This document shows, in pieces, positions 3,257 through 24,079 of a stretch of DNA of 25,903 bases. The notes below the pieces were generated by a model. It was not told the origin of the DNA, did no database searches, and worked only from the letters and a program-made list of their open reading frames with translations. The first letter of the stretch is position 1; every line of letters begins with the position of its first letter. Location: positions 1 to 25,903 of the IMG/VR virus record IMGVR_UViG_3300042445_000388. One strand, 5' to 3'. A program made the translations under genes and the position numbers. This stretch comes from a virus.

Positions 3257-3487
3257 TTACTTAAGGTTCATTTTTGCCATCAAAGCAATCAACTTTTGTT
3301 CTACTCTTTTTGATGGTCTTGTTTTACCCGAAAACCAATCATACACCGTTTGTCGTGAAACGTTAAGTTCTTTCGATACTTGACTAGCGGGATACTTTAG
3401 TGCTATGCAAAGTTTACCTAACAATGTTCCTGTGGTCTCCTTAGCTCTAGCATTAGCCTCGATAATTACTTGGGAATAGCCACGCAT
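3257..3487 (-). CDS. XRE-family helix-turn-helix regulator
   Basis: This is a small DNA-binding protein of 76 residues from ATG 3485-3487. A longer reading begins at TTG 3497-3499, but the ATG lies only two bases after the stop of the upstream gene and is preferred. The segment PASQVSKELNVSRQTVYDWFSGKTRPSKRVEQKL (shown here only to locate it: QVSKELNVSRQTVYDWF) is a typical helix-turn-helix with a recognition helix starting at SRQTVY. There is no peptidase or dimerisation domain, so it is not a LexA/CI-type cleavable repressor. Lying between the SSB-like gene and the primase gene, it probably tunes early transcription. It is one candidate binder for the palindromic operators between 14.4 and 23.4 kb, but the sequence gives no direct link. 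Confidence 0.8.
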   Translation of the reverse strand: MRGYSQVIIEANARAKETTGTLLGKLCIALKYPASQVSKELNVSRQTVYDWFSGKTRPSKRVEQKLIALMAKMNLK

Positions 3488-3489
3488 AA

Positions 3490-4410
3490 TTATGCCCAAT
3501 CTGATACTAAATCATCTAAACTAACATCACCTTGATCAACTTTTGGTGCTGCAGGTTGTGGTGCTGGTGGAGGAGTAGGTTTCTCCGCTGCACGAACTGT
3601 AGGTTCAGGAATATCATCTTCAACTTTTGGTGCGGCTACTTGAGGACGATTGATAGGTTGTTGTTTCTTTTGTTCAAACTCTTCTCCATCATCTTCTTTA
3701 TTAATATTTACTGATAAAGTAATAGCACGTTTAGCTTCTTCTGAAGTTGATTTTGCAGAACATGCAGCATACTCTTCATCATTAAGAATACGAATAGCTT
3801 TAAAGCCAATCTTTGTGCTTGATGAGTCTTCATCAAAAGATACGCGTGATACAACAGACATCAAGTTCTGACCATTAGCACGAACGTAATCTGTATATTC
3901 ATGTAATGGTTTACAATCTTTTGTACCATTACCAAATATTGATTGTGCAGGTAAAGTCATTTGATACACATCGCCATTCATATCATCAGCACGAACCATA
4001 GCAACACGTCTACTAAAACGACATGCTTTAGTGCCGTTAGCACCTGAGCCTTTAATATTTTGTGGACATGCTAAACATGTATCTGCTTGTTTTTCTACCA
4101 CAGCTTCATCAGGCTTTTGACTATCTGATGTCCAACATGTTGGAGGTGGCATCTTTTCGCCAGGAACATATGCTTTAGAAAAATACATTCTATGCACATG
4201 CGGTGACGCATTAACAATAACCACATCAAGCGCGTCTTGATTTGATTTCTCTACTTCTTTACCATTAACCATTAATCTAAACTTACCACCACGTATAGAT
4301 ATACGTTTAGAAGTTACTGAACTACCTGTAATATTGGCAGTAAACCCATCATCCCTACGTGTATGTGTTGCTACTGCGGTGCTACCAAATACGTCTAAAT
4401 CTGTACTCAT
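3490..4410 (-). CDS. Candidate single-stranded-DNA-binding protein (306 aa)
   Basis: The N-terminal ~200 residues look like a folded domain, with an ISIRGGKFRLMVNGKEV beta segment. A cysteine group (CLACPQN...KACRF) lies near residues 112-131 and may hold a metal ion. The next ~70 residues are a disordered linker rich in P, A, E and K (KPTPPPAPQPAAPK), and the protein ends in an acidic tip, VSLDDLVSDWA. A globular domain, a flexible linker and an acidic tail with a terminal aromatic is the layout of bacterial SSB and of T7 gp2.5, where the tail recruits replication partners. The gene sits in the replication module next to primase and SNF2 helicase genes and has a strong AAGGAGG site before its ATG. 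No OB-fold motif can be proven by eye, so the SSB role is inference. Confidence 0.6.
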   Translation of the reverse strand: MSTDLDVFGSTAVATHTRRDDGFTANITGSSVTSKRISIRGGKFRLMVNGKEVEKSNQDALDVVIVNASPHVHRMYFSKAYVPGEKMPPPTCWTSDSQKPDEAVVEKQADTCLACPQNIKGSGANGTKACRFSRRVAMVRADDMNGDVYQMTLPAQSIFGNGTKDCKPLHEYTDYVRANGQNLMSVVSRVSFDEDSSSTKIGFKAIRILNDEEYAACSAKSTSEEAKRAITLSVNINKEDDGEEFEQKKQQPINRPQVAAPKVEDDIPEPTVRAAEKPTPPPAPQPAAPKVDQGDVSLDDLVSDWA

Positions 4411-7396: not shown

Positions 7397-8071
7397 TTAC
7401 TTTCCCCAATGTGAGCATGATTGAACAGGGCAGAACTTCCTACATGCAAAGTTTGGGACTGCATTGAAAACCCCTGTCTGATGGGCAGTGTCTATCCTAT
7501 GTGTTATTTTACCCCATTCTGCAAACATTTCATCTAATTTGTCAATTGTATAGTCTTCTTTTAATATCTCTTTACTTACTAGAAAAACCAATCCAGACTT
7601 GACTTTTAACATATCTGGGAAGTGTTTAAATATAGCTACGCTAAACAAGGATAGCTGTCTAGTATCTGCATACTGACTAGACTTGCCTGTTTTATAATCG
7701 ATCAAGGTAGCTAACTTAGTTTCAGGGTTGATAACTAGTAAGTCCACAACACCACGCCACCAAACATCTTTAGCAAAGAAGTCACAAGGTTCTAAGTCTT
7801 TGGTTAAACCTAACTTATACTCACAATACTTATCCCCTGGAATTGCTATTAACTTGTCAAGGGTTGGCTGAAACATATCAAACTTAGTAGGCAGCGGAGT
7901 TGCGTTCTTAACGTATAACTCACAAGCTTTGTGAACTTCGTTACCATAAAGAAAATGTTCTGTATTTGGGTCTTGCTTAATATCTTTCGCTACATACAGA
8001 TGATAGTATTGCTTAGGACATTTCTCAAATGTGGTAGCACTCGAGTAAGACCACGTTTTAAATTCAGCCAA
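7397..8071 (-). CDS. PD-(D/E)XK nuclease, RecB/Cas4-like
   Basis: This is probably a phage exonuclease for recombination or DNA-end processing. The nuclease core is VVDLLVI (Asp near residue 110) and TLIDYKTGK (D-x-K near 124), the PDDEXK_1/RecB motif pair. A cysteine in EKCPKQY near the N-terminus and the C-terminal group CRKFCPVQSC suggest a Cas4/AddB-type iron-sulfur cluster. The start is TTG 8069-8071, giving (M)AEFKTWSYS: AGGAG lies eight bases before it, whereas a longer TTG reading at 8089 would put the SD inside the gene. The gene overlaps the stop of the upstream small gene by eight bases. Together with the SNF2 helicase it could form a two-part end-processing system. Confidence 0.83.
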   Translation of the reverse strand: MAEFKTWSYSSATTFEKCPKQYYHLYVAKDIKQDPNTEHFLYGNEVHKACELYVKNATPLPTKFDMFQPTLDKLIAIPGDKYCEYKLGLTKDLEPCDFFAKDVWWRGVVDLLVINPETKLATLIDYKTGKSSQYADTRQLSLFSVAIFKHFPDMLKVKSGLVFLVSKEILKEDYTIDKLDEMFAEWGKITHRIDTAHQTGVFNAVPNFACRKFCPVQSCSHWGK

Positions 8072-8246
8072 TTGGAGTTCTCCTAGCAATCTCTTTTGCT
8101 ATCTTTGATTTATGTTTACCTTCTGCAGCTTTATCTAATAACTCATATAGCTTTTTTAAAGACAAGGCTTTTAATCTATCTTTACCTGTTCTTGTTTTAA
8201 ACGGGTCAGCATGCCGTCTACTTTTGTGTATTTGTTGTGTCGCCAT
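8064..8246 (-). CDS. Small basic protein of unknown function (60 aa)
   Basis: This highly basic protein has the helical segment KLYELLDKAAEGKHKSKIAK, similar in style to short nucleic-acid-associated proteins in phage early regions. The ATG lies inside the upstream gene (29-nt overlap) with an AAGG site six bases away. The stop overlaps the SD-supported start of the RecB/Cas4-like gene, so the two are likely co-translated. No family is assigned. Confidence 0.6.
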   Translation of the reverse strand: MATQQIHKSRRHADPFKTRTGKDRLKALSLKKLYELLDKAAEGKHKSKIAKEIARRTPIG

Positions 8247-8463
8247 GATCTACCTTTTGGACTTCGCCTGTTGATTTATTAAGTTCATACTCGGGTAAAA
8301 CTTCTTTCCCTACGGGTTTCATTTGGTCCCATTCTTTATCTATAGGTAATTCTTCTTTCTTTTTCTTACCAAATATCAAATCCCAATTCTTTTCAAACTG
8401 TTCGTTATTAGGTTTAGATTGTAACCAATCGCCTGTTACATCATTACGTGCGGTCTTCTTCAT
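8218..8463 (-). CDS. Small hypothetical protein (81 aa)
   Basis: This is a charged soluble protein. Its N-terminal DVTGDWLQSKPNNEQFEKNW, followed by DLIFGKKK, resembles a short conserved segment seen in many uncharacterised phage proteins of replication regions (TGD..SK...y..N.d.IF). The C-terminal half is polar and probably flexible. The ATG is preceded by AAAGGGAAC. The gene overlaps the oxygenase-like gene upstream by 20 nt and the basic protein gene downstream by 29 nt. Function unknown. Confidence 0.65.
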   Translation of the reverse strand: MKKTARNDVTGDWLQSKPNNEQFEKNWDLIFGKKKKEELPIDKEWDQMKPVGKEVLPEYELNKSTGEVQKVDHGDTTNTQK

Positions 8464-8998
8464 ATGTTCCCTTTACTATCTTTATTACGTCATCATAACT
8501 ATGTATATATGACTTTAAGCAATATGCAGTTCTTATAGCATTAGGTTTACATTTTACACTATGTATTTGCTTTACGTCTAATACATATACATCGCCATAG
8601 TTTGCTTTAAATGTACCTATGACATCTAAATCTTTTTCTTGATATAGCGCACCGTCTGTTTGATTGGGTAGCTTTTCAATATAAGGGGCAATACCATCTT
8701 TAATTTTATAAAAACTTGTTATGCCCTCAGCAGTGTCTACATAAAAATTAATAACTGCTTTAATCTTTGTATCAATATGCGGTATTACATTTGCTATATT
8801 TATTAATATTAGCGCGGGTTCAAAATCTTTTTTATACTCTTTAGGTATTATTTCTAGCAACTTATTACTTGTTTTACTATCTATTTTATATGTGGTGTAA
8901 CCATAAAACTGTCCACCAATAGTTCCACCATATCTAACAAGAACTTCGTTTTCATTCTTTGTATGTAAATTATGTTTTTGAGTGAGTATTTGAAACAC
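8444..8998 (-). CDS. 2OG-Fe(II) oxygenase-like protein
   Basis: The 184-residue product shows the three iron ligands of a 2-oxoglutarate/Fe(II) oxygenase: HID (H74, D76) and IHSV (H146). An Arg at R156 in AIRTAYC follows and could bind 2-oxoglutarate. The beta-rich pattern VINFYVD...GDVYVLDV matches a double-stranded beta-helix. Phage members of this superfamily may modify DNA bases, proteins or small molecules; the substrate cannot be read here. The gene begins with GTG overlapping the TAG stop of DNA polymerase (TAGTG), so translation is coupled to the polymerase. Sequence similarity to known families is loose, so the call rests on spacing of the H-x-D, H and R residues. Confidence 0.6.
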   Translation of the reverse strand: MFQILTQKHNLHTKNENEVLVRYGGTIGGQFYGYTTYKIDSKTSNKLLEIIPKEYKKDFEPALILINIANVIPHIDTKIKAVINFYVDTAEGITSFYKIKDGIAPYIEKLPNQTDGALYQEKDLDVIGTFKANYGDVYVLDVKQIHSVKCKPNAIRTAYCLKSYIHSYDDVIKIVKGTYEEDRT

Positions 8999-10824
8999 TA
9001 CTTAGCATCCATATAGTTATCACCTACGCCTACCTCACAACCAAGCGGTAAGTCACTACACCATGTTGGAGCAGTAGTCATACATTTTTTAACATACGCT
9101 ACACATTCATCTACTTCATCTTCGGGACATAGCATAACTAACTCATCATGCACAGTCATTACTACATCATACACTTTCGCTACTTGAATTAATTGTTCCC
9201 CTATTATATCACGAGCCAATGATTGTATACAGCGTTGAAAAGTTTTAGATGGATGAATATATTCAGGGATTATTGTTCTGCCCATAAGCTTATCGTATGC
9301 CCATGACTCTCCTGTATCCGTCTTTAACTTCCTAAGGTTAGGTAATCCTAGCATCATGCCATTAGGTTTCATCATACCTTCGTGAGGAACACTAGTTATA
9401 ATACTACCATTACCCATACGATATAATTGACCTGCTCTTATACTTTCAAGCATCGTGCCTGCATCCTGCCAAGCTTCAACAAGTTCGGGATTAGCACGTC
9501 TGTAAGCATAGACAATGTTTTTAACTTCGTTAAGTTCTTTCTTTACACCACCTTGTTTTAAGATAGAGTGCATCTTGTTAGCCCCTACCCCATAGATACC
9601 TGATAAGTTAACTACCTTAAATATATAACGTAAGTCTTTATCAACTTTATCATATTCAATACCTGTAATTTCCGATGCTGATTGTTTATACAAATCAATA
9701 CCATCTTTAATCTGCTGTATCTTAGCCGATGATTGAGCAAACCAATAGGCTAGTCTTAACTCAATATTACTTAAGTCAGAGGCTACAAGTTTCCATCCTT
9801 TAGGCGCGCATATAGCTCGTCTTAGCTCTGATGTTCTAGGCAGGTTCTGTAAGTTAATACCATCAACACCACTCCATCGATGAGATACCACCGCCCCTGA
9901 ATACTTTAACGGAACGGGTAACTTACCTCGGTTGGCTATTTGAATAAAGTTTTCTGTTCGGGTTTCTTCGAGCGTAGATTTATTGCCAATACGCGCTGCA
10001 GCAAGTGCTTGAACATGTGGTTTCTCATGATCCAATAAATCTTTAAATCCTTCATCAGTCTTCGCAAAAGCATACGTTTCCTTTCCTGTGGTTGCACTAA
10101 TTTTAACGGGGGGTTCTACACCTTGTTCAATAAGTAACTCAGCAAACTTAGGGTTACTCATAAGTAGTTCTTTATCTACGGATACAGAGGCTAGTAATTT
10201 TTCTTTAGCTTCTTTAACTTCGTGGAGATGTCGTATTAACAAACCTTTATTAAGTTCTAATTTAGGTTCTGTAAACATACGGATAGTTAAATCTATAAGA
10301 CGCATCTCAGGGGCAGTAAACTTATTCTTCATTTTATAAAACAACTGACGAGTAAGTTCTACATCATTGATACAATACTTGGCGTAAGAAGCCATTTCAT
10401 TTGAAGTAAAATCTAATCTATGTTTACCTAAAGCATCGCCTACTTCTGTGCCTTTAACTCCTATGCCATAGAATGTTGATAGATTAGCTAATGATACAGA
10501 CTCAGTAAGTCCATGTAAGATTTGACCCATACTCATGGTATCAAACAAACCTAGTGGATGAATGTCAAATATCCATGAAAGAATAGCCGCATCAAACCGC
10601 ATGTTGTGTCCCAATACAAAGCTATCTTCTAAGTCAAACCCTTTAAGAAAAGTTTTTATCTCGTCATGAGTGCCTGTGTTCCAATAGGTTGTTGTGCCAT
10701 CGTTGACAGCGACACCGATAACTTCAAACTTCTCGTCACGTATGTATTCTTCAGTAGTAAACTTCTTTAATCCATACTCTTTATCGTAGTATGTTTCAAA
10801 GTCAAGCGTGATTAGTTTAGGCAT
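8998..10824 (-). CDS. polA: Family A DNA polymerase with 3'-5' exonuclease
   Basis: This is the replicative polymerase of the phage (608 residues; T7-like phages have ones of similar size). The N-terminal proofreading domain has ExoI LDFETYYD (D8, E10), ExoII GHNMRFDAAIL and ExoIII YAKYCINDVELT. In the polymerase domain, motif A is ASDLSNIELRLAYW near residue 350. The motif B region is DLRYIFKVVNLSGIYGVGANKM near 405 (named by its K...YG core). Motif C is TVHDELV near 560. There is no 5'-3' exonuclease domain, as expected for phage replicases. Upstream lies the coiled-coil gene (2-nt gap); downstream the GTG of the oxygenase-like gene overlaps the stop. The SD is weak, so coupling to the upstream gene is likely. 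Confidence 0.93.
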   Translation of the reverse strand: MPKLITLDFETYYDKEYGLKKFTTEEYIRDEKFEVIGVAVNDGTTTYWNTGTHDEIKTFLKGFDLEDSFVLGHNMRFDAAILSWIFDIHPLGLFDTMSMGQILHGLTESVSLANLSTFYGIGVKGTEVGDALGKHRLDFTSNEMASYAKYCINDVELTRQLFYKMKNKFTAPEMRLIDLTIRMFTEPKLELNKGLLIRHLHEVKEAKEKLLASVSVDKELLMSNPKFAELLIEQGVEPPVKISATTGKETYAFAKTDEGFKDLLDHEKPHVQALAAARIGNKSTLEETRTENFIQIANRGKLPVPLKYSGAVVSHRWSGVDGINLQNLPRTSELRRAICAPKGWKLVASDLSNIELRLAYWFAQSSAKIQQIKDGIDLYKQSASEITGIEYDKVDKDLRYIFKVVNLSGIYGVGANKMHSILKQGGVKKELNEVKNIVYAYRRANPELVEAWQDAGTMLESIRAGQLYRMGNGSIITSVPHEGMMKPNGMMLGLPNLRKLKTDTGESWAYDKLMGRTIIPEYIHPSKTFQRCIQSLARDIIGEQLIQVAKVYDVVMTVHDELVMLCPEDEVDECVAYVKKCMTTAPTWCSDLPLGCEVGVGDNYMDAK

Positions 10825-12323: not shown

Positions 12324-12628
12324 GTTGGCATCTCCATAATCCGTCTTACAACTTCAGCTTTCTTGTTATGGAATTCCATAGACTTTTGATCAAGTAACCT
12401 TTGGTCTATTTGTTTTCTAAACGCTGTATCTATTCGTAACATAGCCGCTTTATAATCTAGATACACTGCATCTGTCGAGTTCTCGGGAATAATAAAAAAT
12501 TGCCCATCTCTGACACCAATGTTTTCTACAAACTTACCTGTCTCTGTAAGTTTAAGTATAGCCATCTTTTCTTTATCTTCTTGTGGCACGATGGATGAAT
12601 TTTCATCCATGACGTGATATATTTTCAT
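12320..12628 (-). CDS. Hypothetical protein (102 aa)
   Basis: A soluble alpha/beta protein with the beta-rich segment VRDGQFFIIPENSTDAVYLD and a helical, charged C-terminus (FRKQIDQRLLDQKSMEF...). No motif is recognised. The ATG has a GGAGAAC site and overlaps the stop of the DUF3150-like gene (ATGA); its own stop overlaps the VRR-NUC start. This tight chain suggests co-expression with both neighbours. Confidence 0.65.
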   Translation of the reverse strand: MKIYHVMDENSSIVPQEDKEKMAILKLTETGKFVENIGVRDGQFFIIPENSTDAVYLDYKAAMLRIDTAFRKQIDQRLLDQKSMEFHNKKAEVVRRIMEMPT

Positions 12629-13467
12629 ATGTTCTCCATAATTTGATTTACACGAGCAAGTATTTCTTGTCTTGCACCTTTACTATCGCGTAACTCATCA
12701 GCTGTAACTCCTACTAATGATTGTTCTAATGCTTGTCTTGCGTGTTCTAATTTTGGGTCTTTTGTTACATTAAGCCTTGTTAATAGATTTGTCAACTCTA
12801 ACGCATTATCTACTAAACTATTTCTGAATATCTTTTTATCATCGCCACTCAATCTATCTACCATATGTTCTAGTGTATTGTGTAACCTAGACCATGCGTC
12901 ACTCATAGCGGCTTCAACGCGACCTTCATATGCTTTCTGATATTCTTTCTGCATCTCATCTCGTATGTCATCTGCGATGTCAACACGGAAGTCCTTTGTT
13001 TCAGGCACAGGCATAATAGTATAACGTAGATTAAACTTAGATGCAATCTTGTCCGCATCGGGGTATTCATTTCTATCAAACAACTTACCCAATTTAAATG
13101 CCATACTTAATATGATGTTTGGGTATTGTTGTATAAACGTATTGATACGAGATTTAAATTCCGCTTCATAGATACCTAGCTGTTGCTTGTAATCAAAGAA
13201 GTTATTCATAGGTAATAACCTTGTGCCTGTATCTGACCAAGGCAGAGTTTGTCTACCATGCCAATCACGAATTTCATTTGCTAGCTTTGTGATAGCATCT
13301 AGTTGGTCTGAACCTGCAAGGATATGTTTGTTATAATTACCTGCCTTGATGGTTGTGTTTTTGTTTATATCAATTTCTTTAGACACGTTTTTATCTAGTT
13401 TCCTAGCTGTCCATATTGATATGTTTAAGTCAATTAAGACTGCACTGCTTGCTATACTGATACTCAT
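12625..13467 (-). CDS. DUF3150-like protein, partner of MoxR/VWA cassette
   Basis: The 280-residue product opens with LIDLNISIWTARKLDKNV, has LPWSDTGTRLLPMNNFFDY near residues 75-93, a long helical middle and PVPETKDFRVDIADDI. The isiwtarkkL start and the LPW..G.RlLP..nyFdy and PvP..dFRv segments fit the DUF3150 proteins I recall from phages and mobile elements. Those are often encoded with a MoxR-type ATPase and a VWA protein, and both occur here a few genes upstream (14480-16693). The match is from memory and not searched. The likely role is a helical adaptor or substrate of the ATPase. The ATG overlaps the stop of the 53-aa gene (ATGA). Confidence 0.55.
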   Translation of the reverse strand: MSISIASSAVLIDLNISIWTARKLDKNVSKEIDINKNTTIKAGNYNKHILAGSDQLDAITKLANEIRDWHGRQTLPWSDTGTRLLPMNNFFDYKQQLGIYEAEFKSRINTFIQQYPNIILSMAFKLGKLFDRNEYPDADKIASKFNLRYTIMPVPETKDFRVDIADDIRDEMQKEYQKAYEGRVEAAMSDAWSRLHNTLEHMVDRLSGDDKKIFRNSLVDNALELTNLLTRLNVTKDPKLEHARQALEQSLVGVTADELRDSKGARQEILARVNQIMENI

Positions 13468-13625
13468 TCTGTTTCCTCCTCTGCTCTTTCTTCTTCAATC
13501 TCTGTTAAATATTCATCTACATATTTTGCTAAGTGTTCGGGAAAATCTAACTCTTCAATTTCACCATTGTCCCACTCAACTTCTATTTTTAATTTCCATG
13601 CTACTATACTTTTTGCTTTACTCAT
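13464..13625 (-). CDS. Small acidic protein (53 aa)
   Basis: A short gene supported at both ends: its ATG (13623-13625) overlaps the TGA of the gene upstream and is preceded by an AGGAGG site seven bases away, and its TGA overlaps the ATG of the DUF3150-like gene. The product starts MSKAKSIVAWKLKIEVEWDN and ends in an acidic helix (TEIEEERAEEETE). It could be a small cofactor of the MoxR/VWA cassette; no family is known to me. Confidence 0.68.
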   Translation of the reverse strand: MSKAKSIVAWKLKIEVEWDNGEIEELDFPEHLAKYVDEYLTEIEEERAEEETE

Positions 13626-13882
13626 TTTATTTCCTCCTCTACGTTGATAATTTTGTGTAATGCAGGGTGATACAATAAATGCTTATATGTTTCTTCAAAA
13701 TCTAAACGCTTGTATTTCCATTTAGGTTTCCTATCTTTAAACCAATCTGTATCTACTAATTGCATCAATACATGATGCAAAGCCCAATAGTCCATACGAT
13801 ATTCTTCACCATTATGGTCTCGAACCGATATTACTGTCCCCCATTTACAAGATAATAGTGATACGCTTTTAGGTTTAGCCAT
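13622..13882 (-). CDS. Hypothetical protein (86 aa)
   Basis: A small basic protein with many aromatic residues (YRMDYWALHHVLMQLVDTDW). The N-terminal part looks beta-rich (GTVISVRDHNGEEYRMDYW) and the C-terminal part helical. The start is ATG with AAGG eight bases upstream, ten bases after the stop of the previous gene. It lies between the VWA gene and the DUF3150-like gene, so it may belong to that cassette. Unknown function. Confidence 0.65.
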   Translation of the reverse strand: MAKPKSVSLLSCKWGTVISVRDHNGEEYRMDYWALHHVLMQLVDTDWFKDRKPKWKYKRLDFEETYKHLLYHPALHKIINVEEEIK

Positions 13883-13892
13883 GATTTAATCC

Positions 13893-14423
13893 TTAATAAC
13901 TATCTGCAAAGTCATAGAAATTAACATCAACAACACCTAACTCTCGTCTTTCCATCTTATCTAAAAAGTCTTTGAGTTCACCATCTATTACAACATCTAC
14001 CTTCATGATTTTCTTAAGTTGTTTAACATCATGTCTATCAAATTTATAAGCTCTCACATCGTTTGTTGGACTGTTTTCATCAGCAACTTTAATTGTTTCA
14101 TCTAAATTGTTTCTTTCCCATTCAGATAAATCTGATTGTAATTTAGTCAATGATGCTACATTTTTAAGTTTAGAAAAGAAAGGATGACCGTTAGGTAAAT
14201 CCTGCCATCTAATATACCAACTATCGTATCTAAAATGAGGCGTGGGGTATTTTCTCAATAGCCACTTGGCTATGGTTGTTGTAGCAGAATGCCCATAAGA
14301 TACTGCACCATTCCGTAGTTGTCTAATAATGTTTTTAATCTGTCTATCCGTAAACTTATTAAAGTTTATTTTCATTGACACTTCAGCATATTGCGCTATT
14401 TCGTTTCTAATATATGTTGCCAC
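13893..14423 (-). CDS. Hypothetical protein downstream of a palindromic element
   Basis: The 176-residue product starts with GTG (14421-14423), preceded by AAAGGAG seven bases away. A 30-bp palindrome (14445-14474) ends 21 nt upstream of the start. The protein is basic and helical (RQIKNIIRQLRNG, KLQSDLSEWERNN) and ends in VDVNFYDFADSY. I do not recognise it. The palindrome plus SD layout is shared with the MoxR gene and the first gene of this operon, so these genes seem to be regulated alike. Membership of the MoxR/VWA cassette is inferred from position. Confidence 0.7.
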   Translation of the reverse strand: MATYIRNEIAQYAEVSMKINFNKFTDRQIKNIIRQLRNGAVSYGHSATTTIAKWLLRKYPTPHFRYDSWYIRWQDLPNGHPFFSKLKNVASLTKLQSDLSEWERNNLDETIKVADENSPTNDVRAYKFDRHDVKQLKKIMKVDVVIDGELKDFLDKMERRELGVVDVNFYDFADSY

Positions 14424-14444
14424 TTTCTCTCTCCTTTATGTTGT

Positions 14445-14474
14445 GAACATTTTTACTTTTGAGTAAGAATGTTC
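14445..14474. promoter_or_regulatory. 30-bp palindromic element, copy A
   Basis: Half-sites GAACATTTTTACT and AGTAAGAATGTTC flank a 4-bp spacer; one mismatch between arms. It lies between the stop of the VWA gene (14480) and the GTG of the 176-aa gene, 21 nt from that start. Confidence 0.85.
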
Positions 14475-14479
14475 GGTTA

Positions 14480-15637
14480 TCATTCTTCTATGTGAATAGT
14501 CTTACCATGTGGTGATGTATTGTGCTTAGATGTGACTGCCCATAGTGTAGGGTAATCCCAACTACCACCCCAATCATCTTCCACATAACCATCTGTTAAT
14601 ATAATAATAGCCTCGGGTTCAATGCGTTTATCTTTGATATACTGATTAACACACCCAACATGAGTGCCACCCCCGCCTGCGGGTTTAGTAGACTGAACCA
14701 ATGCTTTGTAATCACCTTGATTGTATGTCTCATGCCCTGCAACTTGTGTATCCCAATACAACAACTCTATACTTGAAGGGGATACATCTTCACATATAGC
14801 TACCACTTCCGTTAAGAACTCGGATAGTTCTTTGTCACCAATAGAACCCGATGTGTCTATGCCAATAACTACTTGACCTATCGACTCACCTATAAGACTA
14901 GGCATGTATATGTCATGACCTATGAAACGTTTGTGTGGTCGCTTCCATGTAGTCTTGTCTTTGTTACGACAAGTGGCATTAACAAAATCACGCAACTGTT
15001 CACGCCAATTTACCTTAGGCTCTAGCAGTTCATTGACACTTCGATTTTTATTACCTTGCATCTTGCCACGAATGATTTCACCTTGACGCAACGCTTGATC
15101 AATCTGCTTGGCAGTTTCTTTAACTTCCTCATCAGACAAAGCTTCAGCACCTTCCCAATCATGCGTATCATGACCACCTTGACCACCACCTCCATTCTGC
15201 TCACTTTCTTTGTTGAGCAAATCAAAGACTTGCTTGGTAGTCATGCCTGCATACTTTGTATCAAACAAAGCAGACGATGGCATTGCAGTAATCTCATTAC
15301 TATTATCGGCTTCATGTATTGAATAGTTCACGACATAGTCAGCCGCCATGTTTGCAAGCATGGGGTTTTGTTTCCATAGCTTTTTCCACAAGTGCATGTG
15401 TTGATATGCTTTGTGTAATGCTTCATGCAACACGACAAAGTTTAGTTCCTTGTCATTCAATGTATCAATAAACTTTGGGTTATACATGACATCACGACCA
15501 TTGGTTGCCGCAGTCGGTAAGTCTTCCGTAAAGTTTACCTTGCCCACCGATAACACACCTGCAAACATACAGAACTGTTTGCTACGCATTATCGCTATGT
15601 GGGACTTCGTGACTCTTTGTTCACTCGTTAGTGCCAT
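14480..15637 (-). CDS. HExxH metallopeptidase-like plus VWA domain protein
   Basis: The 385-residue product has two parts. The N-terminal half carries HEALH (H71, E72, H75) and a following AADYVVN segment with D100, as in DUF2201 putative metallopeptidases. The middle is polar and linker-like (NGGGGQGGHDTHDW). The C-terminal half is a VWA-like domain: IGIDTSGSIGDKE with the DxSGS metal site near residue 259, and ILTDGYVEDD near 347. VWA proteins of this class work with MoxR AAA+ ATPases, and the MoxR gene lies 9 nt upstream. The SD is GGAGATAAGC before ATG. The pair may remodel or degrade a host or phage complex; the substrate is unknown. Confidence 0.87.
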   Translation of the reverse strand: MALTSEQRVTKSHIAIMRSKQFCMFAGVLSVGKVNFTEDLPTAATNGRDVMYNPKFIDTLNDKELNFVVLHEALHKAYQHMHLWKKLWKQNPMLANMAADYVVNYSIHEADNSNEITAMPSSALFDTKYAGMTTKQVFDLLNKESEQNGGGGQGGHDTHDWEGAEALSDEEVKETAKQIDQALRQGEIIRGKMQGNKNRSVNELLEPKVNWREQLRDFVNATCRNKDKTTWKRPHKRFIGHDIYMPSLIGESIGQVVIGIDTSGSIGDKELSEFLTEVVAICEDVSPSSIELLYWDTQVAGHETYNQGDYKALVQSTKPAGGGGTHVGCVNQYIKDKRIEPEAIIILTDGYVEDDWGGSWDYPTLWAVTSKHNTSPHGKTIHIEE

Positions 15638-15646
15638 GCTTATCTC

Positions 15647-16693
15647 CTAGAAGTATTGGTTATTCTTAACTGCCCAATCAATGAACGACTTGTTGGTCGC
15701 GGCTACTTGCTTGCGTGATGATGCCATGATGTTGACAGCAAACAATGCTTGTATCTCCATCGGTAAGCGTTGCAGATAAGTCAACCACGCATCCATATGT
15801 TTGTCTGTGATTGTCATAAGTTCTCGCATAACTAGGATAACTCGTGCAGACGGGTCGCTAGGTAAGATGGCTTTCTCAGGTTCTTGATATATGCTTTCCT
15901 TAGTAGGTAGTCCATCAGCTAGACTGAAGTAAGCAGACATATCACGAGAGGCTGACTCACCGATAGTGCCTGTGAGGGCGACCATTGTAGTATCTTCACC
16001 GAGGGTTGCTCTGTTCTTAACAATGAACGATGCCTTCTCTAGTGAACGAGGCGATACAAACGCATCTTGTTGTTTGCGTGGATTGTAGATATACATGTTC
16101 TCTTTCTGTGAGTCATCGGTATAACAGGCAAGGGCATGTGGGAATTGTTTAACCCATGCTAGAACTTCGGGTGCTATACCATTATCTACACCCCAGTTAA
16201 TCCACTCGTCATCGTTAGGATTGCGAATGGTGACGGAAGTCAATCTGTTCTTGGCATGTGCTTTCATGGTATCACCTACACCATCTGTTGTAAGATTACC
16301 TGTGGAATACACGATAGAGTCGGGGTGAAACTTAACTGCACCCAATCGTCTTTCTAGCATGACAGGTAATAACATATTCTTGACAGGTTCACTAGCTTTG
16401 GTGATCTCGTCTAACATGATGATGACAGGCTTGTCATTGTGTATAGCAAACCTTTCATTCGGATAGAATGATGTGGTCTTTGTTTCATGGTTCATGGCAG
16501 GCATAGCTAGGTCACCTAAGTCTAAGTCTGCACAATCAATATACACAGGTGTGTGGTTGGGAAACCTAGCACTCAATGTCTTTAAGATTGATGATTTACC
16601 AATGCCTGGCTGACCACGCATGTGGATTGTGACATTACGACCTACTGTTGCAATTAGTTCTTCTGCTTGTTTCAAACTGATTTCTTGTTGCAT
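15647..16693 (-). CDS. MoxR-like AAA+ ATPase
   Basis: The 348-residue product is an AAA_5/MoxR-type ATPase. Walker A is GQPGIGKSS (27-35), Walker B is VIIMLDEITKA with D95 and E96, sensor 1 is YSTGNLTTDG with N133, and an Arg-finger candidate is at R150 (HAKNRL). The C-terminal lid is helical. MoxR proteins act as chaperone-like motors on metal-binding VWA partners; here the VWA/HExxH gene follows directly. ATG is preceded by AAAGGAGAGAG, and palindrome copy B ends 22 nt upstream, overlapping the stop of the previous gene. Expression can therefore be adjusted separately from the operon head. Confidence 0.92.
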   Translation of the reverse strand: MQQEISLKQAEELIATVGRNVTIHMRGQPGIGKSSILKTLSARFPNHTPVYIDCADLDLGDLAMPAMNHETKTTSFYPNERFAIHNDKPVIIMLDEITKASEPVKNMLLPVMLERRLGAVKFHPDSIVYSTGNLTTDGVGDTMKAHAKNRLTSVTIRNPNDDEWINWGVDNGIAPEVLAWVKQFPHALACYTDDSQKENMYIYNPRKQQDAFVSPRSLEKASFIVKNRATLGEDTTMVALTGTIGESASRDMSAYFSLADGLPTKESIYQEPEKAILPSDPSARVILVMRELMTITDKHMDAWLTYLQRLPMEIQALFAVNIMASSRKQVAATNKSFIDWAVKNNQYF

Positions 16694-16715
16694 GTTACTC
16701 TCTCCTTTATGTTAT

Positions 16716-16745
16716 GAACTTTCTTACTGAGTAGTAAGATTGTTC
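16716..16745. promoter_or_regulatory. 30-bp palindromic element, copy B
   Basis: Half-sites GAACTTTCTTACT and AGTAAGATTGTTC, 4-bp spacer, two mismatches between arms. It overlaps the last codons and stop of the gene ending at 16724 and lies 22 nt before the MoxR start. The element thus writes the NNLTTQ end of that protein. Confidence 0.82.
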
Positions 16746-17569
16746 GTTGGTTTTACTTCTACTAAAACTTGCGGGTTGGATACTTTAATAAGCTTATCCA
16801 AATATCTTTTTACCATACCCATATTGGCATAGTAGACACGATTACTATTTGTCCATCGCATGCGTTGTGTTCTATTTACTAAATGATAATAGCTTTGATA
16901 CATATTACTTTCTTGAGCAAGGAATTCTAAAATACCTCCCTCATATGCACGAACTTGGTTATCTATTTCTCTATTAGGTTCAACGCCTTCGTTGTTTAAT
17001 TTAAGCAAGGTATCTATATACTTTAATAAATTTTTATACGGCTTTCTTAACTCACGCATCTGACTTGCATCAAACCTATACTTAACAGGTGTTTCAAACT
17101 GTTCGGGGTTAAGTGGTTGATTGTTATAATCTAACTTATACCAATCACTTGCGTTCATATAAAACTTGTCGCCCATTTGATTGATGAAACATTCAATCTG
17201 ATGATTTTTTACCATTGGACTTTGTGTGAATGGTGCAGGCACATAACGCTTATGTTCAAACGGAATTAACCCAAGTCCTGCCAAATACTCAACAAAGTAT
17301 TGAGTGCTTGTAGATGGGTAATCACCTAGCGTTATCTCTTTGTGTGTTGGATAGTATCGCACTAAGTCTGTGTTGTAATACCCCGCAATATATACTTCGA
17401 TCCCGTCTTGTATTTCTTGACGCAACCATTTTTCTTTCTCATACCTATCACCTAATCTACGCACCGATTGATTTTCACCACGAACTGCTTTTTTACTATT
17501 GAATACTTCTCTTGCATGTTTATAGTCCTGTATTCTAGGCATGTTATAAACATTGATATGAAAGCCCAT
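16724..17569 (-). CDS. Hypothetical protein (281 aa) of the MoxR/VWA cassette
   Basis: This protein is rich in Tyr, Asn and Arg, with no transmembrane segment and no motif that I recognise. It has a mixed N-terminal half (DGIEVYIAGYYNTDLVRYYP, then EITLGDYPSTSTQYFVEYLA) and a helical C-terminal half (MRELRKPYKNLLKYIDTLL). The last residues are encoded by palindrome copy B, so coding and regulation overlap there. AGGGG SD precedes the ATG two bases after the previous stop. Being just before MoxR, it may be the substrate or adaptor of the ATPase; that is inference only. Confidence 0.7.
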   Translation of the reverse strand: MGFHINVYNMPRIQDYKHAREVFNSKKAVRGENQSVRRLGDRYEKEKWLRQEIQDGIEVYIAGYYNTDLVRYYPTHKEITLGDYPSTSTQYFVEYLAGLGLIPFEHKRYVPAPFTQSPMVKNHQIECFINQMGDKFYMNASDWYKLDYNNQPLNPEQFETPVKYRFDASQMRELRKPYKNLLKYIDTLLKLNNEGVEPNREIDNQVRAYEGGILEFLAQESNMYQSYYHLVNRTQRMRWTNSNRVYYANMGMVKRYLDKLIKVSNPQVLVEVKPTNNLTTQ

Positions 17570-17570
17570 G

Positions 17571-17912
17571 TTATTCCCCTTCCTTTAAGTCATAACCTCT
17601 GTTCATCCAACTAACAAACTTCATGTTCTCAAGCCAATCTTGTAGGCTAGGTATCCACCCACCACAATCTTCTTTAACATGTTGTTCACCGATAAGTCTT
17701 GTAGGCACTTCACGACCATCACTATTCACAATAAATAACCCGAATTGTCTTTCACATTCAAAGATACCCTGTGAGTGATGACGGATAGCCCTATGTCTTG
17801 CATCAGCAAAACATTCTTTGGTTGCATCAAACCAATCATGAATAGGTTGGTAGTCAGCTTCAACACCTCCCCACTTCTTTACAGATGTTTTAGAATGGTA
17901 ATGAGTATTCAT
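17571..17912 (-). CDS. DUF6915-like protein (113 aa)
   Basis: The product has a striking set of His, Trp and Asp residues: HYHSKTSVKKWGGVEADYQP, then IHDWFDATK and ADARHRAIRHHSQG, then NSDGREVPTRLIGEQHVKED and IPSLQDWLENM. This pattern matches, from memory, the widespread DUF6915 family, whose function is unknown. The repeated conserved His (HHSQGIFECE, GEQHV) suggests a metal site. GGAGGAGG SD precedes the ATG, and the start overlaps the stop of the gene upstream. It is the second gene of the operon under the promoter at 18454. Confidence 0.66.
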   Translation of the reverse strand: MNTHYHSKTSVKKWGGVEADYQPIHDWFDATKECFADARHRAIRHHSQGIFECERQFGLFIVNSDGREVPTRLIGEQHVKEDCGGWIPSLQDWLENMKFVSWMNRGYDLKEGE

Positions 17913-18334
17913 TATTCCTCCTCCTCTTCATCCATGTCATAGTTATAATCATCTGTTGACATAGTGTTGATACCAATATCTAAATGAGTTGTTGGTGGGC
18001 TTTGAGTAAAGTCAATATGCAAATGTCCTTGACCACCTTCGTTATTGCACCAATCAAGACTGACTTCATCTAATGCTCGGTAGCACAAGTCTTCTAACAC
18101 ATCTACGAGTGAAGTGTCTTTAGTTTCAGGTGCTTGTTTGCCATATGTCATTTTTGTCCATGCCATCATGTCTTTAGGTATGTCATGATGATTGTCTTGT
18201 CTATCAATATAATAAACACTTTCAACTTGCCCGTCGTCACCACCACCTCTAAACTCAACATACACACTCTTTGCACCTAGCAGATTTAACTGCGTCAGTA
18301 GTGTTTCTTTTTCTTGCTTGTTTGGATATATCAC
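17912..18334 (-). CDS. DUF6878-like protein, first gene of MoxR/VWA operon
   Basis: The 140-residue product starts with GTG (18332-18334), with GGAG eight bases upstream. Features are a beta-rich segment AKSVYVEFRGGGDDGQVESV, a helix ending in EVSLDWCNNEGGQGHLHIDF, and an acidic tail DMDEEEEE. The GDxG and W.nN.GG.G patterns resemble, from memory, the DUF6878 family; that match is tentative. It is the promoter-proximal gene of the leftward operon and is preceded by palindrome copy C (ends 23 nt upstream), a second hairpin and the promoter. Confidence 0.6.
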   Translation of the reverse strand: MIYPNKQEKETLLTQLNLLGAKSVYVEFRGGGDDGQVESVYYIDRQDNHHDIPKDMMAWTKMTYGKQAPETKDTSLVDVLEDLCYRALDEVSLDWCNNEGGQGHLHIDFTQSPPTTHLDIGINTMSTDDYNYDMDEEEEE

Positions 18335-18357: not shown

Positions 18358-18387
18358 GAACATTCTTACTTTAAAGTAAAAATGTTC
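18358..18387. promoter_or_regulatory. 30-bp palindromic element, copy C
   Basis: Half-sites GAACATTCTTACT and AGTAAAAATGTTC, 4-bp spacer TTAA, one mismatch. It lies in the leader between the promoter at 18454-18481 and the GTG at 18334. Confidence 0.85.
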
Positions 18388-18453: not shown

Positions 18454-18481
18454 ATTATACCACAATGGTTGACAATGTCAA
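18454..18481 (-). promoter_or_regulatory. Consensus sigma70-like promoter of MoxR/VWA operon
   Basis: A perfect -35 TTGACA (18476-18481) and perfect -10 TATAAT (18454-18459) with a 16-bp spacer, reading leftward. The spacer ends in CATTGTGG, nearly as in the promoter at 21763. It lies about 110 nt upstream of the GTG, giving a long leader that contains two palindromes. Confidence 0.85.
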
Positions 18482-19878: not shown

Positions 19879-20116
19879 TGTTCGCCTCCACTAATCGTTT
19901 GGCATTATAGTTCTTACGAACCTTAGCCCTAGCATGTAAGTATTTGGCACACTCTTTATCGCCCATGTAATAGGCAAGTAAAGTTCTAAACGCTTGGCTT
20001 ATCTCATAAAAGTTTGGCTCATCGGGAAAGTTTAGGTTGATTGCATACCCACTTTTTAACGCTTCAATTAATACTTCATCGGCTTGGTCATCATTTAAAT
20101 CAATTAAGACTTGCAT
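19868..20116 (-). CDS. Hypothetical protein (82 aa)
   Basis: A soluble helical protein with the pattern DLNDDQADEVLIEALKSGYA, typical of small phage proteins with an N-terminal beta strand and a DDQAD helix. The C-terminus is basic (HARAKVRKNYNAKRLVEA). The SD AAAGGAGAGAAG precedes ATG; the start overlaps the SleB-like gene by 17 nt. Unknown function. Confidence 0.65.
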   Translation of the reverse strand: MQVLIDLNDDQADEVLIEALKSGYAINLNFPDEPNFYEISQAFRTLLAYYMGDKECAKYLHARAKVRKNYNAKRLVEANNGL

Positions 20117-20486
20117 ACTTCTCTCCTTTTTGTTTATAAAAAATAAGATTAGACCATTTAACTACTGGTTCTAATCTATGCCATGACTTCGGTTTCTTTA
20201 TGGTTGTGTCATGGAAGTTCGTTGCACCATAACTATAATCAACTTCCAATCGGTGTAATACTTTATACGCTATATCATAATAGTGTTGTCGGATAACCGA
20301 AGGTGGTTGTGTAATCCCATACCAACTAAACTGATATGGTCGTTTCATCTCACTACACACATTCTTTTTGTTAAAGTCGGCTCGCCTCATTAATACATAG
20401 CCTACTGCGATCTGAGCTTGATGTGGCTCTGATGCTGACTCCATGTATATGGTCGTGGCGAGACAAAGTAAAGCTTGGTCAATCAT
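20100..20486 (-). CDS. SleB-like cell-wall hydrolase (Hydrolase_2 type)
   Basis: The 128-residue product has the SleB/CwlJ-type core: LATTIYMESASEPHQAQIAV with the candidate catalytic E16, YQFSWYG at 51-57, and the later GATNFHDTTIKKPKSW segment. Such enzymes cut peptidoglycan. No signal peptide is obvious, so release would depend on a holin or on the virion. It is encoded in an early leftward operon among unknown small genes and not in a lysis cassette with a holin, which is unusual; SAR-type targeting is possible if the first helix inserts. AAAGGAGG SD precedes ATG. Confidence 0.8.
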   Translation of the reverse strand: MIDQALLCLATTIYMESASEPHQAQIAVGYVLMRRADFNKKNVCSEMKRPYQFSWYGITQPPSVIRQHYYDIAYKVLHRLEVDYSYGATNFHDTTIKKPKSWHRLEPVVKWSNLIFYKQKGEKYASLN

Positions 20487-21338: not shown

Positions 21339-21658
21339 GCTTGTTCCTTTCTTAATGATTGTTGATGTTGCATTGATTGAGAAACTGCTCTGAACATATC
21401 TACTTTCGGGTAAGAATGTTCGGGGTTTGCTTGGCGATACGCTTCAATAACAAACTTGACATTTTCTCGGTCTATGCTGTCAAATTCTTTGATGTTTTTA
21501 TAGTATCGCTTGACTGCTCGTTCTACTTCCCAAAAGGTGAATGATTTATTTTTACTGCAATAATATGGGAAGTCTTTGTAGAAGTTATACACATAGTCGG
21601 CAAAACCTTGATACTGATAGTCAAACCTATCTGTGTTTGATGCGTTTAAAACATTCAT
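21335..21658 (-). CDS. Hypothetical protein carrying a palindrome copy in its code
   Basis: The start is ATG 21656-21658, or the adjacent GTG at 21659-21661, since AAGGAGAGA lies just before; the longer ATG at 21694 is inside palindrome copy D and lacks an SD. The product begins MNVLNASNTDRFDYQYQGFA and is rich in Tyr, Phe and Lys; it is helical with no known motif. Bases 21392-21421 match the 30-bp palindrome (copy G) and encode EHSYPKVDMF. It is the first gene of the second leftward operon, under the promoter at 21763. Confidence 0.68.
   Translation of the reverse strand: MNVLNASNTDRFDYQYQGFADYVYNFYKDFPYYCSKNKSFTFWEVERAVKRYYKNIKEFDSIDRENVKFVIEAYRQANPEHSYPKVDMFRAVSQSMQHQQSLRKEQA
21392..21421. 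promoter_or_regulatory. 30-bp palindromic element, copy G (inside a gene)
   Basis: Half-sites GAACATATCTACT and GGTAAGAATGTTC with a 4-bp spacer. It is the most degenerate copy besides E, with the same 30-bp length, within the 21335-21658 gene and about 240 nt from its start. A coding coincidence cannot be ruled out, but one half is 12 of 13 to the consensus. Confidence 0.5.
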
Positions 21659-21678: not shown

Positions 21679-21708
21679 GAACAATCTTACTCAAAAGTAA
21701 AAATGTTC
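21679..21708. promoter_or_regulatory. 30-bp palindromic element, copy D
   Basis: Half-sites GAACAATCTTACT and AGTAAAAATGTTC, 4-bp spacer. It lies in the leader between the promoter at 21763 and the ATG at 21658, ending 20 nt before the start; the AAGGAGAGAG ribosome site follows. Its reverse complement nearly equals copy A. Confidence 0.84.
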
Positions 21709-21762: not shown

Positions 21763-21790
21763 ATTATACCATAATGGTGGACATTGTCAA
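21763..21790 (-). promoter_or_regulatory. Consensus sigma70-like promoter of the second leftward operon
   Basis: Perfect -35 TTGACA (21785-21790) and -10 TATAAT (21763-21768) separated by 16 bp, reading leftward. Sequence from the -35 through the region just past the -10 is almost identical to the promoter at 18454, so the two operons should be driven in parallel. Confidence 0.85.
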
Positions 21791-22012: not shown

Positions 22013-22042
22013 CTAAGTCCTTGATTTATAAGTAATAATACA
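22013..22042 (+). repeat. Direct repeat R1
   Basis: First of four 30-bp units with core AAGTCCTTGATTT and end AGTAATAATACA. The preceding AACAAC is shared with R2. Confidence 0.8.
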
Positions 22043-22076
22043 AGGGTGTTTACATTGTCAATAGCTAAATAACAAC

Positions 22077-22106
22077 CTAAGTCATTGATTATTCAGTAAT
22101 AATACA
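22077..22106 (+). repeat. Direct repeat R2
   Basis: Core AAGTCATTGATTA, then CAGTAATAATACA. It starts 64 bp after R1. Confidence 0.85.
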
Positions 22107-22174
22107 ATATAACACGAAAAACGGCATTGCGTGGGCTGGAGGAAAGAGGGCAGGAAAAAATAAAATTGATCAGC

Positions 22175-22185
22175 CACGAAGTTAA
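22175..22185 (+). repeat. CACGAAGTTAA half-site
   Basis: This single half of the CACGAAGTTAAC palindrome family lies just beside the AAAAGTAAAAA inverted repeat. Confidence 0.5.
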
Positions 22186-22297
22186 AAAAGTAAAAACAAA
22201 TTTTCGTCCCGAGGTAATTTTTACTTTTCCTTGTTATATTGTATTTTTATATTAAGTTATTGATTATATTGATATTTGTATTTTTATACCTGCTTTT

Positions 22298-22327
22298 CTA
22301 AGTCATTGATTTTTCAGTAATAATACA
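22298..22327 (+). repeat. Direct repeat R3
   Basis: Identical to R4 over its 30 bases. A degenerate copy (AAGTTATTGATTATA) lies at 22254-22268, between R2 and R3. Confidence 0.88.
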
Positions 22328-22349
22328 CCCTACATATTATAGGGGTATT

Positions 22350-22379
22350 CTAAGTCATTGATTTTTCAGTAATAATACA
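22350..22379 (+). repeat. Direct repeat R4
   Basis: Identical to R3 and starting 52 bp after it. Core AAGTCATTGATTT and end CAGTAATAATACA. Confidence 0.88.
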
Positions 22380-22458
22380 GGGCTTGTTATATTACCCCAT
22401 GTGCGTGTTATATTGCGTCACAAAAGTGTCACAATTAAAAGACACAGAAACATGTAGC

Positions 22459-22476
22459 CACGAAGTTAACTTCGTG
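22459..22476. repeat. Perfect 18-bp palindrome CACGAAGTTAACTTCGTG
   Basis: A perfect palindrome that touches the left end of 30-bp element copy E. The same half-site is found at 21890, 21985, 22175 and 22630. Confidence 0.85.
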
Positions 22477-22505
22477 AACATTCTTACTTCTGCGTAAACT
22501 TGTTC
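22476..22505. promoter_or_regulatory. 30-bp palindromic element, copy E (degenerate)
   Basis: Half-sites GAACATTCTTACT and CGTAAACTTGTTC. The left half matches the consensus fully, the right half only in part. It is abutted by the 18-bp palindrome. No gene start with an SD follows it. Confidence 0.65.
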
Positions 22506-22586: not shown

Positions 22587-22606
22587 AAAAAATGGGCGAA
22601 AAAAAA

Positions 22607-22624
22607 CCCTGTATTTCTACAGGG
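22607..22624. terminator. Bidirectional intrinsic terminator
   Basis: CCCTGTA and TACAGGG form a 7-bp stem around TTTC. On the plus strand CTTTTTT follows; on the minus strand eight Ts (complement of 22599-22606) follow. It lies 17 bases beyond the stop of the 22642 gene, so it ends that leftward transcript. Confidence 0.85.
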
Positions 22625-22629
22625 CTTTT

Positions 22630-22641: not shown

Positions 22642-23376
22642 TTACTTAATGTCAGCTAAAAATTTCTTAATAGCCTGTTCATTTTCTAAGCAACGATAAG
22701 CAAAATCAAGTTTAGCTAGTGAGTATTCAAAAATAGGTTCATTATTTTTGTTTAATCTACCGCTATCAATCTTTAGCATTTTTTGCACCTTTTCTACCAT
22801 AGCTTTAAGATTTTTGCCTTGCTGTTCTTTTTGCTGTGAAACCAATTTTTCAGATTTGATTTTTTTAACTTCGCTTAACTCTTTTTGAAGTTTAATATCT
22901 TCTTCTTTTGGTTTCACATTATCAATAAAAGCTTGACCGATAACCCTGTTCACTTTAGCAAGTTTAGCTTCTACACTTTCCAATGCTTCGTGAATATACT
23001 TTTCTTTTAATTCTTTTCTTTTTGCACTCATTCGCAACCCGTCTTTTGTAGGCTTTGAAGGTTTCACGAATTTAGGGTTCGCAAATTGCACTTGCTTCAA
23101 CATTTGAGAAAAAAGCTTTTCTGATGTTGTTAATGCTAGTTTATGGTCATTCACTAATGAATTAAGAATGACCTGTTGAACCTGTTTAAGCAAATTATAA
23201 TCAGGCTTTAAACCCATAAGCTTCAACATTAAAGCACTTGCGGTGTTCATTCTTTTATCGGCGGTCAAGTGCGTTTCATGTGAAGCACTTAATTCAACGC
23301 TGATACTCTTACATGATGATAAAACTTCTACTGGTAAATTAATAACTTCTACTTCTTTTTGAGTTTCTTTTGACAT
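22642..23376 (-). CDS. Helical, Lys-rich protein of unknown function (244 aa)
   Basis: The start is ATG 23374-23376, with AAAGG seven bases upstream; the ATG at 23391 has no SD. The product is almost wholly helical, Lys- and Glu-rich and soluble, with coiled-coil-like stretches (KLAKVNRVIGQAFIDNVKPK, KIKSEKLVSQQKEQQGK). I do not recognise it. It stands alone, with its own promoter (23472-23499), palindrome copy F and a terminator, outside the two leftward operons. An isolated single-gene unit with its own copy of the shared operator-like element is what a regulator or an early takeover protein would look like; this is inference. Confidence 0.75.
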   Translation of the reverse strand: MSKETQKEVEVINLPVEVLSSCKSISVELSASHETHLTADKRMNTASALMLKLMGLKPDYNLLKQVQQVILNSLVNDHKLALTTSEKLFSQMLKQVQFANPKFVKPSKPTKDGLRMSAKRKELKEKYIHEALESVEAKLAKVNRVIGQAFIDNVKPKEEDIKLQKELSEVKKIKSEKLVSQQKEQQGKNLKAMVEKVQKMLKIDSGRLNKNNEPIFEYSLAKLDFAYRCLENEQAIKKFLADIK

Positions 23377-23407: not shown

Positions 23408-23437
23408 GAACATTTTTACTAGCTAGTAAGAATGTTC
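23408..23437. promoter_or_regulatory. 30-bp palindromic element, copy F
   Basis: Half-sites GAACATTTTTACT and AGTAAGAATGTTC around AGCT. The symmetry extends to GTG...CAC at 23406-23439, with one mismatch. It lies between the promoter at 23472 and the ATG at 23376. Confidence 0.88.
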
Positions 23438-23734: not shown

Positions 23735-24079
23735 CTAGATTGCTTTTGGATCGAAGTTGTATAACTCGGAGTAGACGTCTTTGATGCGGAGGAACTTAGG
23801 ACCATGCTCATGGAAATCATCATCACCTCTTACATATAAGGCTAGATGCACCATCTCATGGAGGAGGGTTTGAAATATAGTAGTAAAGTAACCACAAGAA
23901 CCAGAACTTATTTGAATTTCCATCTCATGCTCATCAAAACACCCATAGATGGTAGGATCTTTAATAACTTTAAATCTAACTTTAGAAGACTTAGGCATCG
24001 AAAGAGTATTGAAGGGCGCCATTTGACAAGCCATGTTGTAAAGAATCTCTAAATTTTTAGAAGTAAGAGTAGTTTTCAT
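23735..24079 (-). CDS. SprT-like zinc metalloprotease
   Basis: The 114-residue product has HEMVH (H74, E75, H78) in TLLHEMVHLALY, followed by HEHGPKFLRI with the third ligand H92; this is the SprT/Spartan-like peptidase core. The length is right for a stand-alone phage SprT domain, without the C-terminal zinc ribbon of larger homologs. Spartan-type enzymes cut DNA-protein crosslinks; a phage one may clean proteins off replicating DNA. It is read leftward, divergently from terminase, with 103 nt between the starts. A weak promoter (TTGAAG, 16 bp, TATTAT) lies in that gap. A terminator follows. Confidence 0.83.
   Translation of the reverse strand: MKTTLTSKNLEILYNMACQMAPFNTLSMPKSSKVRFKVIKDPTIYGCFDEHEMEIQISSGSCGYFTTIFQTLLHEMVHLALYVRGDDDFHEHGPKFLRIKDVYSELYNFDPKAI

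Follow-up and report, generated by a model that had tools for sequence, protein, structure and literature searches.

The window analysed here, a 25,903-nucleotide phage fragment from IMG/VR (record IMGVR_UViG_3300042445_000388), carries in its minus-strand early block the genes for a MoxR-class AAA+ ATPase, a protein joining a metallopeptidase domain to a von Willebrand factor A (VWA) domain, and a DUF3150-like protein (Table 1). We consider it somewhat probable that this triad forms an early, three-part protein-remodelling machine with a client inside the cell, and that it lies behind DNA dyads whose regulator the first early gene encodes. More tentatively, and with confidence that stops short of even, we propose that early control by a hyper-divergent regulator acting on genome-specific bipartite roadblock dyads (~15 specificities in one syntenic group) is a previously undescribed class, and that it governs a new ternary machine, common to phages and conjugative plasmids, that serves their establishment in the host. 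More surprising than the triad is the operator/regulator pair, which was found through palindromes noticed in a sequence-only reading of this DNA.

That reading had also proposed a cassette of MoxR, peptidase-VWA and DUF3150-like genes, which is borne out by the open reading frame (ORF) coordinates, by domain matches and by linkage, far beyond what chance would give, in all loci with enough flanking sequence. All cassette ORFs lie on the minus strand where they had been placed, and ribosome-binding sites are clear for most of them. The MoxR product matches Pfam AAA_5 (E 2e-6, 28.1 bits against a curated cut-off of 22) and PHROG_1297 'ATPase' (E 1e-53), and retains the core residues of its class: Walker A GQPGIGKS, Walker B IIMLDE, the sensor-1 asparagine and the arginine of AKNR. 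None of 13 aligned MoxR proteins departs from the Walker A lysine, one Walker B aspartate or the sensor-1 asparagine, and the best match of the MoxR profile in the PDB is Midasin. The protein is a homologue of coliphage N4 gp24, is matched by 393 records and is encoded here together with its VWA partner. In a distant triad on contig L055, the MoxR protein (7903-9015) seems to be without the arginine-finger position, reading SRNAV and not KNRL.

Both halves of the partner protein score above their family cut-offs, DUF2201_N metallopeptidase at E 2e-29 (103 bits) and DUF2201 VWA-like at E 4e-17 (63 bits). It contains the HExxH motif and a complete metal ion-dependent adhesion site (MIDAS; DTSGS/T/D). 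An AlphaFold2 model (mean predicted local distance difference test, pLDDT, 77.5) matches VWA folds over residues 250-385 with Z ~12, and its peptidase half is scarcely covered by fold matches. Across 15 diverse VWA proteins, the MIDAS residues (DxSxS, T, D) never vary. HExxH is intact in all eight aligned phage members but has decayed on two plasmids, those of P. dioscoreae (pIII) and Variovorax. By this pattern, the essential activity would seem to be grip-and-strain remodelling, with the predicted proteolysis as an addition. The protein is a homologue of N4 gp25 (NC_008720.1, 11164-12306) and is matched by 779 records. The label 'HNH endonuclease' that PHROG_1314 gives to this family is unsupported by its domains; it has been copied into RefSeq phage records, including that of N4 gp25.

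The third product scores slightly under the Pfam gathering cut-off for DUF3150 (PF11348; E 2e-4, 21.0 bits against 24.9), and its relative in contig G004 narrowly exceeds it at 25 bits. Its assignment to DUF3150 is supported by annotated relatives from cyanophage and plasmids, with matches at E 1e-22 or better. Its predicted structure (mean pLDDT 75.3) consists of a strand followed by long helices, for which no Foldseek match was better than E 0.3 and the VIA-align matches were just generic helical bundles, with Z no higher than 9.3. We found no mention of DUF3150 in the literature searched, a search that most subscription papers lay outside.

Relatives of each core protein were fetched from viral contigs, and loci on one contig overlap, so that the following counts are not independent. 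All 98 DUF3150 loci with at least 4.5 kb upstream carry MoxR and VWA, and where a MoxR locus extends 4.5 kb or more downstream, it always has VWA and DUF3150 as well (104 of 104). The triad is also kept, in changed gene orders, in three distant contigs (L055, L098 and L099; about 32-49% identity) and in cyanophage MinM2. Furthermore, 42 plasmid records match DUF3150. Of seven plasmid regions around such a match, six hold MoxR, DUF3150 and VWA, five of them as a contiguous run, while several small genes separate MoxR from DUF3150 in the Simplicispira plasmid. These triads, on beta- and alphaproteobacterial plasmids, recur at about 22-34% identity, and several adjoin PRTRC or type IV secretion genes. 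The sequence-only reading had named scattered homologues, with no common neighbourhood, as evidence against a cassette; for the triad, the neighbourhood is conserved in other phages and in plasmids. The MoxR-VWA pair itself, which hundreds of phages carry, was already known, and what appears to be new is DUF3150 as its linked third partner.

In two of the plasmids (Cupriavidus pMTS2 and that of B. vietnamiensis), the triad lies near the ThiF-type PRTRC cassette. The MIDAS domain of Midasin binds ubiquitin-like domains, and given this neighbourhood, a possible link between the triad and a ubiquitin-like PRTRC protein deserves a look.

The window holds seven of the 30-bp dyads, where shuffled sequence would be expected to give 0.0. 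Two of them, copies A and B, had been read as marks of gene starts; their positions are real, but they belong to an operator-like family that spans the whole early region. Conservation of the dyad sequence itself among relatives was rejected, as it occurs in few loci, and this led to a search that revealed genome-specific dyad families. Nearly every one of 20 related contigs has its own family of 3-10 dyads, 30-34 bp long and differing in sequence, and the positions are conserved among relatives though the sequence is not: in most contigs the MoxR start codon has a dyad whose centre lies 35-39 bp ahead of it, and in many another lies 17-33 bp past the VWA stop. With genome-specific weight matrices for 11 sequences, all 69 sites lie from -9 to +7 kb relative to MoxR, and the late region has none. 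Within genomes, the half-sites consist of two conserved blocks, 12-15 and 4-7 bp from the axis, and only these blocks are symmetric. Single dyads of a foreign type stand at the fixed places in G013 (-39 of MoxR) and G007 (+27 of VWA), which points to mosaic exchange; these may be operators that the resident regulator does not recognise.

The sequence of the dyads follows one gene. The first early gene keeps its position in all relatives that extend this far, and a dyad often precedes it by about 50 or 110 bp. Its product is 12-43% identical among most genomes, where most neighbours are 60-95% identical. Its protein distance correlates with dyad distance (Mantel r=0.74, 27 genomes), and continues to do so when pairs more than 90% identical (r=0.69, n=22, P=0.0002) or more than 45% identical (r=0.38, n=16, P=0.0004) are removed; these values come from dyad families picked by an automatic rule, with a single dyad in G011, and the Mantel test handles related genomes imperfectly. 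Control genes (MoxR, VWA, and those at 16724 and 18500) give r of about 0-0.13 in dereplicated sets, and other genes, in a smaller set, at most 0.34. As alternative regulators, a helix-turn-helix protein (3257-3499) and the products at 16724, 13893 and 18500 were rejected with r of only 0.0-0.3. The dyad sequence tracks the first early gene far better than it tracks any other gene tested, and the product of that gene is probably the regulator. Pfam, PHROG and PDB profile searches with the family gave nothing significant. Four direct repeats (CTAAGTCATTGATTTNTCAGTAATAATACA; 22013-22393) lie in the gap downstream of this gene.

Near-perfect sigma70 promoters lie upstream of 35-40% of 116 dyads, compared with 3-5% of control positions, and their -10 box mostly ends 43-60 bp before the axis. 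By this geometry, the dyad would sit ~30-60 bp into the transcript, a roadblock position. The palindromes could in principle act instead as RNA hairpins, such as processing sites, attenuators or hairpin promoters, and both their place in 5' leaders downstream of sigma70 promoters and the near-complementarity of their arms would agree with this. However, at the variable positions between the blocks the arms match less often than when they are re-dealt (0.56 versus 0.60, P=0.003), the opposite of what an RNA hairpin predicts; the mismatches are chiefly A-A and T-T. Moreover, copies in one genome are alike, and the differences from one genome to the next follow those of a single protein. The dyads therefore look like double-stranded DNA sites, that is, putative operators, and we regard the hairpin explanation as very improbable.

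The triad is encoded in the early block, opposite in strand to the terminase large subunit (TerL)-like gene, as it is in the 20 related contigs wherever that region is present, and it occurs on conjugative plasmids and megaplasmids that form no virions. Both observations argue against a role confined to the virion, and therefore favour a client within the cell. A pair that folds or clips structural proteins during virion assembly or processing thus seems unlikely to us, even though such a role has been proposed for the same domain combination in jumbo phages (PMC7824862), the MoxR protein p618 of the archaeal Acidianus two-tailed virus (ATV) binds virion proteins and the VWA protein p892 (PMC4124505), and HExxH decay is confined to plasmid members. 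The best-studied MoxR-VWA pairs, on the other hand, are maturation chaperones (PMC9976466, PMC13036017), and neighbours in the window include a family A DNA polymerase (PolA), an SNF2 helicase and nucleases, so that the triad might insert a metal or cofactor into, or reactivate, one enzyme of the same element in the manner of NorQD or CbbQO; DUF3150 would then belong to the client and would not be an adaptor. This appears rather unlikely, as no enzyme gene is a constant neighbour across the phage and plasmid regions compared, which have only the triad in common. That these early genes stand together merely through common descent of one phage family is least credible of all, and close to refuted: most loci do come from one syntenic phage group, but the triad recurs, reordered, in distant phages and, at the low identities given above, in plasmid operons.

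In the favoured model of an early remodelling machine, the MoxR ring, probably a hexamer, would bind the VWA domain of the peptidase-VWA co-chaperone, whose MIDAS site would grip a client that ATP hydrolysis then strains; in the phage versions, the HExxH domain may cut the client as well. DUF3150 would be the constant third subunit, most likely an adaptor by which the client is selected or presented. That client would probably be an in-cell complex, either the host's or one assembled on incoming DNA, relevant to the establishment of foreign DNA and not part of the virion. Transcription of the MoxR gene, and of the gene after VWA, would cross the dyad operators. The first early gene would probably encode the protein that binds them, a fast-diversifying regulator that would act in 5' leaders and between genes, presumably as a roadblock.

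Several observations weigh against this model. DUF3150 was undetected in a whole-record profile search of coliphage N4, phage G, phiFa and CRP-7, which have MoxR and VWA; this speaks against a DUF3150 gene hidden elsewhere in these phages. Many phages thus have the pair with no detectable DUF3150, and the third part is not universal. In the seventh plasmid region (Manganitrophus, Nitrospirota), DUF3150 stands with AAA, DUF1257 and DUF2997 genes instead. The candidate regulator has no DNA-binding domain recognisable in Pfam, PHROG or PDB profiles, and the early position of the triad is compatible with an assembly role too. Further pairings are an adjacent MoxR-VWA pair on plasmid pSYSA and a Streptomyces plasmid on which MoxR adjoins one large unnamed gene. 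The distribution over phages and plasmids is therefore that of a widespread pair with a triad subtype.

Few AAA+ machines are as poorly understood as the MoxR-VWA pairs, and even the model phage N4 carries the phage version, whose role is a proposal. With a third partner that conjugative plasmids have too, action in the infected cell becomes likelier than action in the virion, and the triad becomes a concrete complex to purify. The diversifying dyads and their covarying gene offer a natural library for asking how a protein with no assigned fold reads DNA. The diversification suggests an immunity-like conflict among related phages, for which no integrase has been found so far: none of the tyrosine type is present in 11 long, possibly incomplete contigs, where serine and other integrases and parABS were not searched for.

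Table 1 Features of the 25.9-kb window, with strand where one applies.
Feature	Position	Strand	Remarks
DUF3150-like protein, core member 3	12625..13467	-	280 aa; beta strand and long helices
Small accessory ORF	13464..13625	-	53 aa; in one near-identical locus only
Accessory ORF	13622..13882	-	86 aa; in part of the close relatives
Fast-evolving accessory ORF after VWA gene	13893..14423	-	22-81% identity; absent from some relatives
Operator-like dyad, copy A	14445..14474		just past VWA stop, upstream of 13893
Metallopeptidase (HEALH)-VWA protein, core member 2	14480..15637	-	385 aa; DUF2201_N and DUF2201
MoxR-class AAA+ ATPase, core member 1	15647..16693	-	348 aa; AAA_5, PHROG_1297, motifs
Operator-like dyad, copy B	16716..16745		centre 38 bp before MoxR start codon
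Fast-evolving ORF upstream of MoxR	16724..17569	-	22-73% identity
DUF6915 protein, accessory	17571..17912	-	E 4e-44; absent from several relatives
DUF6878 protein, accessory	17912..18334	-	E 7e-21; absent or displaced in several relatives
Operator-like dyad	18358..18387		upstream of DUF6878
Sigma70-type promoter, TTGACA-16-TATAAT	18454..18481	-	upstream of dyad at 18358
Operator-like dyad	21392..21421		palindrome copy
Operator-like dyad	21679..21708		palindrome copy
Sigma70-type promoter, TTGACA-16-TATAAT	21763..21790	-	upstream of dyad at 21679
Operator-like dyad	22476..22505		downstream of candidate regulator gene
Terminator-like GC stem and T run	22596..22626	-	after candidate regulator gene; read by eye
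Candidate cognate regulator, first early gene	22642..23376	-	244 aa; hyper-divergent, tracks dyad sequence
Operator-like dyad	23408..23437		centre 47 bp before candidate regulator start
TerL-like ORF	from 24766	+	named from sequence, without family search

The sequence-only reading had counted four uncharacterised proteins (13464, 13622, 13893 and 16724), along with DUF6915 and DUF6878, as members of the cassette. All six are variable or absent in relatives and are best treated as accessory; the four have no family match above a curated cut-off. Elsewhere in the window, minus-strand early genes encode a DUF927 primase/helicase-like protein, the SNF2 helicase, a PD-(D/E)XK nuclease and PolA. 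An endolysin-like gene (PHROG_938; 20100-20486, minus strand) is located in the early block and not among the late genes. Adjoining the divergent terminase side, a 114-aa protein (23735-24079, minus strand) with an HEMVHL motif has the look of a SprT-like metallopeptidase and is kept in most relatives. No named phage carries DNA near-identical to the window.

That the role of such genes in phages is undescribed, as the sequence-only reading had supposed, is half right: experiments exist for ATV, and a survey of jumbo phages by Iyer et al. (2021) described a MoxR AAA+ protein with a vWA domain fused to a metallopeptidase, for which virion assembly or processing is the published proposal (PMC7824862). 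The group 2.2 pair of that survey and N4 gp24/gp25 have the same architecture, MoxR with a vWA protein bearing an N-terminal metallopeptidase domain. DUF3150 goes undetected in N4, phage G, phiFa and CRP-7, whereas here a linked triad stands behind dyad operators. The ATV proteins p618 and p892 are likewise a virus-encoded MoxR-VWA pair whose members bind each other and were concluded to act in tail development (PMC4124505); that pair has no peptidase domain (PMC7824862), and p618 is a virion component. The MoxR-vWA ternary conflict systems (PMC7159879), with VMAP, iSTAND, FtsH or a beta-propeller, similarly combine MoxR and vWA with a constant third protein; here, however, the third protein is DUF3150, a metallopeptidase is joined to the vWA domain, and the genes belong to phages and plasmids. 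Pfam and PADLOC detect none of these components in the cassette, although VMAP and iSTAND were not sought with profiles of their own, and the bpMoxR profile reaches only E 0.038, below its cut-off. Membership of a defence system found no support, with no PADLOC match and only a sub-cut-off NCBIfam match.

NorQD, CbbQO, RavA-ViaA and Midasin likewise couple a ring ATPase to a MIDAS co-chaperone, in Midasin on a single chain, and differ from the triad in their cellular clients and in having neither a fused DUF2201_N peptidase domain nor DUF3150. In NorQD, a finger of the VWA protein enters the MoxR pore and the MIDAS contacts the client (PMC9976466, PMC13036017). For the operators, the closest parallel is the repressor/stoperator system of cluster A mycobacteriophages, where many dispersed sites are also genome-specific in sequence and site distance follows repressor distance (PMC6550527). 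The cluster A sites are asymmetric, 13 bp long and read by a monomeric repressor in temperate phages (PMC6550527), whereas those described here are bipartite dyads of 30-34 bp, restricted to the early region and probably read by an unclassified protein.

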